Shown here: positions 13,252-21,102 of the stretch, one piece after another
Position numbering within the stretch: the first letter of the stretch is position 1
How the letters are laid out: each line of letters opens with the position of its first letter
From: Pontibacter sp. G13
GTDB taxonomy: Bacteria; Bacteroidota; Bacteroidia; J057
DNA length: 64,000 nt
NCBI RefSeq assembly: GCF_031851795.1
Contig: NZ_CP134696.1
Span: 4,608,501 to 4,672,500, forward strand
Direction of reading: 5' to 3'
Notes under the pieces: generated by a model
What the model saw: only the letters and a program-made list of their open reading frames with translations
Database searches by the model: none
Told to the model about the DNA's origin: nothing
Made by a program: the position numbers and the translations under genes

Positions 13252-13470
13252 TAGGTGCGGCTGGATTGGGGCGGTGTGAGGTGCCTGAAGTATTCAGTCG
13301 GTGGGACTTGGTATCGGATGAGACGGAACACGATGCGGTGCATGCCCAATTGCTTGAAATGGATTTCATGCCCACCGACCGAGCGCCCAGCGAGTACGGA
13401 AGGGACCGACCCTGCGACGATGCTCCCAAGGGAAGAACGCCCAGTCAGGACGCAGGGGCACACCCAAATC
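13252..13470 (+). repeat. Dispersed intergenic repeat, copy A
   Basis: Starts GTGCGGCTGG...GGTGTGAGG and ends GCAGGGGCACACCCAAATC. It contains a perfect 9-bp inverted repeat GTCGGTGGG (13297-13305) / CCCACCGAC (13371-13379), then CGAGCG and CAGCGAGTACGGAAG, shared with copy B. It lies between the convergent ends of the GH2 and rpoN genes. It opens several short frames, none with a ribosome site or a conserved product, so I call it non-coding. Confidence 0.75.
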
Positions 13471-19867: not shown

Positions 19868-19893
19868 TCTGAATTTCTTTCCTTAAAATATGG

Positions 19894-19921
19894 AGGCCGT
19901 CTCTTTCGAGGTGGCCTTTTT
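19894..19921 (+). terminator. Terminator of DUF151 gene
   Basis: AGGCCGTCTC (19894-19903), loop TTTC, GAGGTGGCCT (19908-19917), then TTTT. Ten pairs, two of them G-T. Confidence 0.85.
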
Positions 19922-19925
19922 ATAT

Positions 19926-20553
19926 GAAGCTGTTCATGGGGGAGCTATGCTTGCTGCAAGCGCTCATTTGCAGAACCTCCCTTCGCCATTTTTTCGGCCA
20001 TAGCCCCACTATGACCTGCAAAAATAGCTTTGGGAGAACCTCTAACTGATCGCTTTCGCTGTCGCATATCCCCCCATGAACAGCTTCTTTTTGTGAGCTG
20101 GCTCTTGGCTTGCAGGAGAAAATTAGCAGAACCTCCCATTGCGTTTTTTCGACATTAGCCGCGCTATGACCTGCAAAACTGGCTTTGGGAGAACCTCCAA
20201 CTGCTCACTTTCGCTGTCGCCTATCCCCCCATGAACAGCTTCTTTTTGTGAGCTGGCTCTTGGCTTGCGGGTGCTCATTTGCAGAACCTCCCTTCGCCAT
20301 TTTTTCGGCCATAGCCCCACTATGACCTGCAAAACTGGCTTTGGGAGAACCTCCAACTGCTCGCTTTCGCTGTCGCCTATCCCCCCATGAACAGCTTCTT
20401 TTTGTGAGCTGGCTCTTGGCTTGCAGGAGAAAATTAGCAGAACCTCCCATTGCGTTTTTTCGGCCATAGCCCCACTATGGCCTGCAAAACTGGCTTTGGG
20501 AGAACCTCCAACTGCTCGCTTTCGCTGTCGCCTATCCCCCCATGAACAGCTTC
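19926..20553. repeat. 155-bp tandem array (four units) with 17-bp inverted ends
   Basis: Four units of 155-156 bp, judged by GCAGAACCTCCC at 19970, 20126, 20281 and 20437. Units 1 and 3 share one version of the unit head (CTCATTTGCAGAACCTCCCT) and units 2 and 4 another (AGAAAATTAGCAGAACC), so a 311-bp dimer was itself duplicated. CCCCCATGAACAGCTTC ends each unit (20071, 20226, 20382, 20537). Its exact reverse complement GAAGCTGTTCATGGGGG stands alone at 19926-19942, giving the array perfect 17-bp inverted ends. Each unit has a short hairpin (in unit 4 GGCCATAG/CTATGGCC, 20462-20482). No gene is credible inside; long minus-strand frames are a by-product of repetition. Confidence 0.85.
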
Positions 20554-20666
20554 TTGAGGCCCGGCCTATTCCTGCATCGCGTCTCCTCTTGTGCGCTTTC
20601 GGCTGCAAATGTCCGTGGATATTGCCTTGGAAGGCTTGGGGGAATCTTGGACATGATGTGGATGCA

Positions 20667-20838
20667 GATTTGGGTGTGCCCCCGCGGACTTGGGAAAGGA
20701 GATGTCGCCTGATCGTGTTTGGCCGCGGCGTCAGGCTATCCACGGGTTCGCTGGCGCTCCGTCCTCCGCTAAAGGCTCCGGACTGCTCGTGCCTCGCACC
20801 GTTCCTATCCTTCACACCCCACCAGCCAACCGCACAGG
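20667..20838 (-). repeat. Dispersed intergenic repeat, copy B'
   Basis: Inverted copy: begins GATTTGGGTGTGCCCCCGCG and ends CACACCCCACC...CCGCAC. Its interior (GTCCGGAGCC, GCGGAGGACGG, CCTGACGCCGCGG on the minus strand) matches copy C much better than copies A and B. Confidence 0.7.
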
Positions 20839-20880
20839 ATCTTCTTGCTGGCTATGCGTACTCACTTGAATTCTGGTAAT

Positions 20881-21102
20881 GTGCGGATGATTCGTGTGGC
20901 GTGAGGGCTCTGGAGTATTCAGTCGGTGGAGTTTGTCGCCAATCTTTGGGAGATTGATTCTGAGGTTGGTTCTCTCGGATTGACTCAGCAAGCACCAAGA
21001 TCCCACCGACCGAGCGACCAGCGAGTACGGAAGAGCCCGACCCGGCGACTCGATGGCCATGCGTCATCCATCTTGCCCGACACGCCGGGACACGCCCAAA
21101 TG
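20881..21102 (+). repeat. Dispersed intergenic repeat, copy B
   Basis: Starts GTGCGGATGATTCGTGTGGC and ends GGGACACGCCCAAATG. The internal inverted repeat GTCGGTGG (20922-20929) / CCACCGAC (21003-21010) matches copy A, while the loop between the arms differs. It is head-to-head with copy B', with about 40 bp between them. Confidence 0.75.

Follow-up and report, generated by a model that had tools for sequence, protein, structure and literature searches.

The window (the whole stretch of DNA analysed here, 64,000 nucleotides of the Pontibacter sp. G13 genome) carries at positions 19926–20553 four head-to-tail units of 155–156 bp each, in the order A-B-A-B. The array follows a putative DUF151-type frame and lies directly behind the intrinsic terminator of that frame, as a first-pass annotation of this DNA had stated: the terminator stem is followed by 7 nt (TTTATAT) and then by the first unit (Table 1). 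Tandem Repeats Finder describes the region 19962–20555 either as 3.8 copies of a period of 155 (90% matches) or as 1.9 copies of a period of 311 (95%), and an ungapped self-comparison of the array over 290 nt gives 95% for a shift of two units against 61% for a shift of one, which bears out the alternation of two versions, i.e. the duplication of a 311-bp dimer, proposed from the letters alone.

The 17-bp left arm, GAAGCTGTTCATGGGGG, is 100% complementary to the ends of all four units, so that the perfect inverted arms described earlier are indeed present. They had been taken to enclose the whole array in the manner of a small non-autonomous element. The kinship with such elements holds, but what the arms enclose is the first unit: together with the end of unit 1, the left arm closes a complete hairpin of 162 bp, and units 2–4 have no left arm. 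Likewise, the short hairpin noted inside each unit exists, but it is merely the tip of a hairpin spanning the entire unit. When 22 first units of the genome are combined in a covariance model, unit 1 scores 163.7 bits against it (E 1.3e-32), the copy itself being among the 22 sequences. A known structured RNA family was rejected on the basis of Rfam (release 15), in which neither the window array nor 12 loci of several genomes had a match above gathering score; the highest-scoring match within an element, to MIR5998, reaches 34.7 bits where the gathering score is 180, and is taken as chance.

Table 1. Features of the array and its surroundings (window coordinates)
Feature	Position	Strand	Basis
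Upstream gene, putative DUF151-type frame, 221 aa	19202–19867	+	Open frame; family name from the first-pass annotation
Intrinsic terminator behind the upstream gene (stem plus T-tract), at which the array is anchored	19893–19921	+	Folded stem 19893–19918, dG -14.8
Unit 1, complete 162-bp hairpin with both arms	19926–20087	- (folding strand)	Arms, fold, covariance model
Left outer arm (terminal inverted repeat), unit 1 only	19926–19942	+	Sequence complementarity
Right outer arm of unit 1; recurs at 20226–20242, 20382–20398 and 20537–20553	20071–20087	+	Sequence complementarity
Repeat 2, version B: spacer replacing the left outer arm, core, right arm	20088–20242	-	Tandem repeat analysis and unit comparison
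Repeat 3, version A: spacer, core, right arm	20243–20398	-	Tandem repeat analysis and unit comparison
Repeat 4, version B: spacer, core, right arm; end of the array	20399–20553	-	Tandem repeat analysis and unit comparison

A dispersed family in the genome

Within the own genome (7.67 Mb in 3 contigs), BLAST with the unit found 44 places, and the covariance model added more divergent copies. A total of 49 loci was examined, namely the window copy, 31 others from BLAST and 17 from the model; the loci and their left ends were picked by eye, and six extra sites with a family-like end (L183–L188) are not part of the 49. An assembly artefact or a chance match of the left 17-mer to an otherwise unique unit, named in the first-pass annotation as what would overturn it, has a negligible probability: nothing was found in its favour, the 49 loci lie on one contig of 7.54 Mb, and the unit is repeated both in this genome and, as homologous copies, in relatives.

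A close relative of the window array is an array at 6.19 Mb (L014), with which it has a common spacer and a core identity of 0.96. Two other loci have an identical whole core, L023, which lies at a terminator, and L026, a single complete copy that is flanked by TAA on either side and has no terminator. The mean identity of units is 0.82–1.00 inside 18 arrays, against 0.71 among the first units of different loci (70 pairs). In two arrays (L020 and L030) the inner units have a common replaced, decayed core between canonical flanks, which may reflect conversion within the array.

Other dispersed repeats are present in the window. Immediately to the right of the array, 20667–21101 is 72% identical to L040 over 449 bp, and parts of it also match L042, L026, L023 and L024. 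The stretch 45891–46297 matches L018 (74% over 417 bp) and L017 (81% over 84 bp), and a short repeat at 13372–13430 is common to L026, L027 and L040 (81–91%).

Conservation of the fold on one strand

The strand referred to here as the folding strand is the reverse complement of the plus strand of the window. It is predicted to be more stable than the plus strand in all 22 first units (for four of them, -67.4/-48.9, -92.3/-75.8, -85.4/-60.9 and -88.7/-71.5 kcal/mol), although this difference depends in part on the strand chosen by the model, the mismatch count given below being the firmer measure. In the alignment of the 22 first units, 94.9% of the cells are standard pairs and 166 cells are double changes, with both-side (compensatory) changes in 39 of the 62 pairs. 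None of 500 shuffles reaches any of the three pairing values, and sliding of the partners abolishes the signal. The outer arms pair in the consensus of the 22 first units as well as in the predicted folds of all 20 copies from other genomes, and across both genera compensatory changes are found in 34 of 43 consensus pairs.

Selection on a double helix alone would leave G-T and A-C mismatches about equally common. Counted on the folding strand, in columns with a Watson-Crick majority, G-T outnumbers A-C by 34 to 3 in the own genome (22 copies), by 20 to 6 in a genome of the same taxonomic family (G006; 9 copies, after exclusion of three of the 12 as short or broken), and by 27 to 2 in a third set of 11 copies from G160, G244, G189 and G129 (family f44) and G107 (family f12), for which the strand was assigned by homology. 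Considering the compensatory changes together with this excess of G-T over A-C, the comparison shows that one strand is under selection to fold, which is compatible with RNA or with single-stranded DNA. Among the most constant positions are the internal-loop stretches GCGAAA, UUUGCAG and AGGUUCU; overall, unpaired columns are no more conserved than paired ones (0.81 vs 0.83).

Copies in other genomes and target duplications

Since a search for DNA similarity in the own genome and 59 relatives gave no match beyond the former, the covariance model was needed for following the family further. An exact pattern scan of genome contigs and of viral contigs likewise gave 0 matches, and BLAST of two units against plasmids none. 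With the model, 2 of 13 genomes of the same taxonomic family were positive (the own genome and G006, which holds 12 copies), and 2 of 22 at the level of the order. A second model, to which the G006 copies were added, recognised the fold in 14 further genomes from eight other families of the class. In all, 16 of 395 genomes were positive with it (own and G006 included), where the 395 are a draw from a larger group, at most seven candidates were scored per genome and filters were stricter, so that absence from the other genomes is weakly supported.

The copies examined outside the own genome are all 12 of G006 and, of the 30 matches elsewhere, 20 from 10 of the 14 genomes. These copies are single, with arms such as GARRCTGTTTAA or GAAGTGGTTTAAA, and the single-contig genome G325 contains three letter-identical ones at separate sites. 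An exact 3-bp target duplication (TTA, TAA, TGA, TAT, AAT or ATA) surrounds 21 of the 32 copies, 6 of the 12 in G006 and 15 of the 20 in other genomes, compared with 14 of 640 control comparisons of 3-mers taken further out. The search of genome and relatives suggested by the first-pass annotation has thus turned up a repeated unit and, in relatives, MITE-like copies with target duplications. It also proposed a look for a target-site duplication outside the window array; around the first unit there is no 3-bp duplication. The window copy does have the terminal inverted repeats expected of a MITE, and duplications of fixed length are present outside the own genome, but in the own genome they occur at only 2 of 22 first units, one of which is the non-array copy L026. 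Older single copies of this genome, judged by eye, mostly lack them too, and age may therefore explain the missing duplications.

A 3-bp target duplication fits a DDE enzyme, and IS5-type MITEs (IS1031-like) have ends starting with GA(G/A) and duplicate 3 bp. At two contig ends of G160, the C-terminus of a transposase runs into a family-like end, with the stop codon inside GAGACTGTTTAAA; its match to PF13586 is weak (E 1.2e-4, below the family cut-off) and comes from contig-end fragments of one genome. From this fragment, the duplication length and the family traits just mentioned, we infer an IS5-type enzyme for the element. Complete insertion sequences with the ends of the family were absent from the loci examined, and in G006 and G000 such ends are found only on single-ended or short copies. 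In G189 (L221), a pair of perfect ends lies 3.4 kb apart, and inspection of the enclosed frames revealed no recognisable transposase. The own genome has an IS5-like element of its own, the ends of which (GAGCGTGTTT) are unlike those of the family and which is 50% identical to the G160 fragment. It is seen as two 99% identical copies of 878 bp (L238 774–1651, and L240) with a frame of 255 aa and TTA on both sides.

A strand-specific fold, a fixed orientation and one fixed and one variable end, as described below for the arrays, would also be expected if a single folded DNA strand were moved by an HUH or a tyrosine recombinase, in a REP/RAYT-like or attC-like manner. This is very improbable, however, as no convincing copy of the element lies beside the two Y1 transposases of the genome and the 3-bp duplications in other genomes fit a DDE enzyme. 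A REP/RAYT element as such was rejected on the same ground: around the two Y1 genes there are only weak matches, the strongest (11.3 bits, E 0.004) being some 1.9 kb away from its gene. One Y1-type frame (181 aa; L047 1258–2206) follows a stretch in which the frames translate as a repeated peptide, which together we take to be REP/RAYT-like.

Arrays behind terminators

In the own genome, the placement of the loci is far from random. With the orientation of each locus fixed by homology beforehand, a strict test (same strand, stem energy of -9 kcal/mol or lower, gap to the array of 14 nt or less) places 37 of the 49 behind a terminator, whereas of 3348 intergenic test points in the window 57 qualify; with a looser test the numbers are 38 of 49 against 66 of 3000 random points. 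The gap from stem end to array is 4–13 nt in the 37 loci. All 28 multi-hit loci (two or more profile hits, partial ones counted) start at this distance behind a terminator stem, and 9 of the 21 single-hit loci qualify. A terminator thus precedes every multi-hit array examined, which is beyond what the first-pass annotation could see. Four loci (L042, L044, L073 and L078) have a terminator within 45 nt pointing at the other end, two of them (L044 and L078) in addition to one at the usual end. In G006, 2 of the 12 copies are behind a terminator by the looser test. Convergent downstream genes were rejected as the cause of the placement, as their orientation looks mixed in a rough count of frames.

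Further whole or partial copies are found downstream at 32 of the 36 loci labelled as behind a terminator (the exceptions being L037, L038, L040 and L044) and at 0 of the 13 others, a label that was assigned by hand; one of the 13, L077, passes the strict numerical test, and moving it gives 32 of 37 against 0 of 12. Another of the 13, L085, shows on visual inspection what looks like a terminator farther upstream and perhaps a partial copy downstream, both unscored. Among the 22 of these 32 loci that have a complete first copy, the next copy begins at unit position 11–20 in 20, of which 16 have a spacer of 15–24 nt (6, 7, 9 and 44 nt in the others); the window array and L014 regain similarity at position 36–40. 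Three of the 22 (L016, L014 and the window array) end in a complete copy, and 18 end in one that is cut short. The L020 array appears to extend past the stretch analysed, its far end being outside the data.

Several of these features would be accounted for if the copies at terminators were RNA-mediated insertions resembling a bacterial SINE, in which the folding strand, as RNA, is copied by reverse transcription starting at the T-tract, the polymerase moves from one template to the next and the last copy is truncated at its 5' side. Indeed, the arrays have a constant end at the T-tract and a varying one on the far side, further copies are confined to the loci labelled as behind terminators, the folding strand lies with its 3' end at the T-tract, the restart falls at unit position 11–20 in 20 of the 22 loci, and the arrays lack target duplications. 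We nevertheless consider this unlikely, since the only RVT_1 match of the genome is a defence-type UG17 reverse transcriptase beside a SLATT protein, the left outer arm is found in the first copy only, which simple template jumping does not predict, and the window array and L014 deviate both in their restart and in their complete last copy. Fuller still is the proposal of a class-wide mini-element dependent on a conserved folded RNA, which inserts here as multimers at terminator T-tracts by target-primed reverse transcription with template jumping; we regard it as rather improbable. The UG17 and SLATT genes (L045 219–2334) are assigned by PADLOC models to a DRT-type defence pair.

The arrays could also be host regulatory RNA genes derived from a MITE, transcribed toward the upstream gene and ended by its bidirectional terminator. 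The strong covariation and invariant internal loops would suit such a role, as would the A-tracts that precede several of the terminator stems. That copies elsewhere are single, scattered and flanked by target duplications speaks against it, as do the decayed cores in L020 and L030 and, at a rough look, the lack of a constant orientation of the downstream frames, and this possibility too seems quite doubtful to us.

The window array is probably a local amplification, at a terminator, of a non-autonomous DNA element (MITE) of about 160 bp and of IS5 type. This is the simplest reading that accounts for the ends, for the duplications seen in other genomes and for the way L026 relates to L023; it leaves unexplained the fixed orientation behind terminators, the lack of multiplication of copies elsewhere and the missing duplications of the arrays, for the last of which age could suffice. 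An IS5-type DDE transposase would move copies in trans, and the folded strand, as RNA or single-stranded DNA, would be needed for the persistence or the movement of the element. Copies landing at the T-tract of an intrinsic terminator may then have multiplied in place, the copying restarting mostly just inside the left arm, and conversion may keep the units of each array alike. The window array would be one such A-B-A-B locus, with L014 its close relative.

The element resembles IS5-type MITEs in its GA(G/A) ends and 3-bp target duplication, and differs from them in its internal fold, conserved across several families of the class, and in the one-way terminator arrays of the own genome. Group IIC introns insert behind intrinsic terminators in a fixed orientation, a preference mirrored by the arrays; unlike them, the element has no match in Rfam and makes 3-bp duplications in other genomes. 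A group II intron was rejected, as no intron-type reverse transcriptase was found in the genome, the one RVT_1 match being the UG17 enzyme. Among published repeats, bcr1 of the Bacillus cereus group is likewise small, dispersed, present in many copies and endowed with mobile features, its mobility being linked to TTTAT repeats (PMC6542083), and it is given as a family with a conserved predicted structure (PMC2267715). Compared by these descriptions, the present family duplicates 3 bp, differs in its ends and its phylum, and forms arrays anchored at terminators; the TTTAT duplication of bcr1 is absent here. The BOX elements of Streptococcus pneumoniae are dispersed, combine outer modules with tandem inner modules that vary in number, and are predicted to fold if transcribed (PMC3049150), all of which recalls the arrays; here, in contrast to that account, the repeated module is nearly the whole hairpin, the left arm is limited to the first copy and the arrays are tied to terminators. 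BrickBuilt of Porphyromonas gingivalis comes near in being a Bacteroidetes MITE with a tandem repeat, in its case of 23 nt between leader and tail, and one of its copies lies shortly behind a Rho-independent terminator; its target duplications vary in length (PMC4596501). The cited passages describe no strand-specific conserved fold for BrickBuilt, whereas one is conserved on one strand here. Searches of the open-licence literature (subscription journals being outside the scope) gave no description of the family or of terminator-anchored arrays.

The structured mobile-element family is real and has, in the own genome, an unusual terminator-bound array form; the multimer arrays tied to terminators are new. 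Small bacterial hairpin repeats are often treated as passive debris. In this family, the fold is recognised by the covariance model in nine families of the class, and in each of the three sets tested only one of the strands preserves it; the single-stranded form therefore does something. The tie between multimers and terminators in the own genome offers a natural test of how repeats multiply beside transcription end points, and RNA-mediated insertion of multimers at T-tracts, if true, would be a bacterial counterpart of SINEs.
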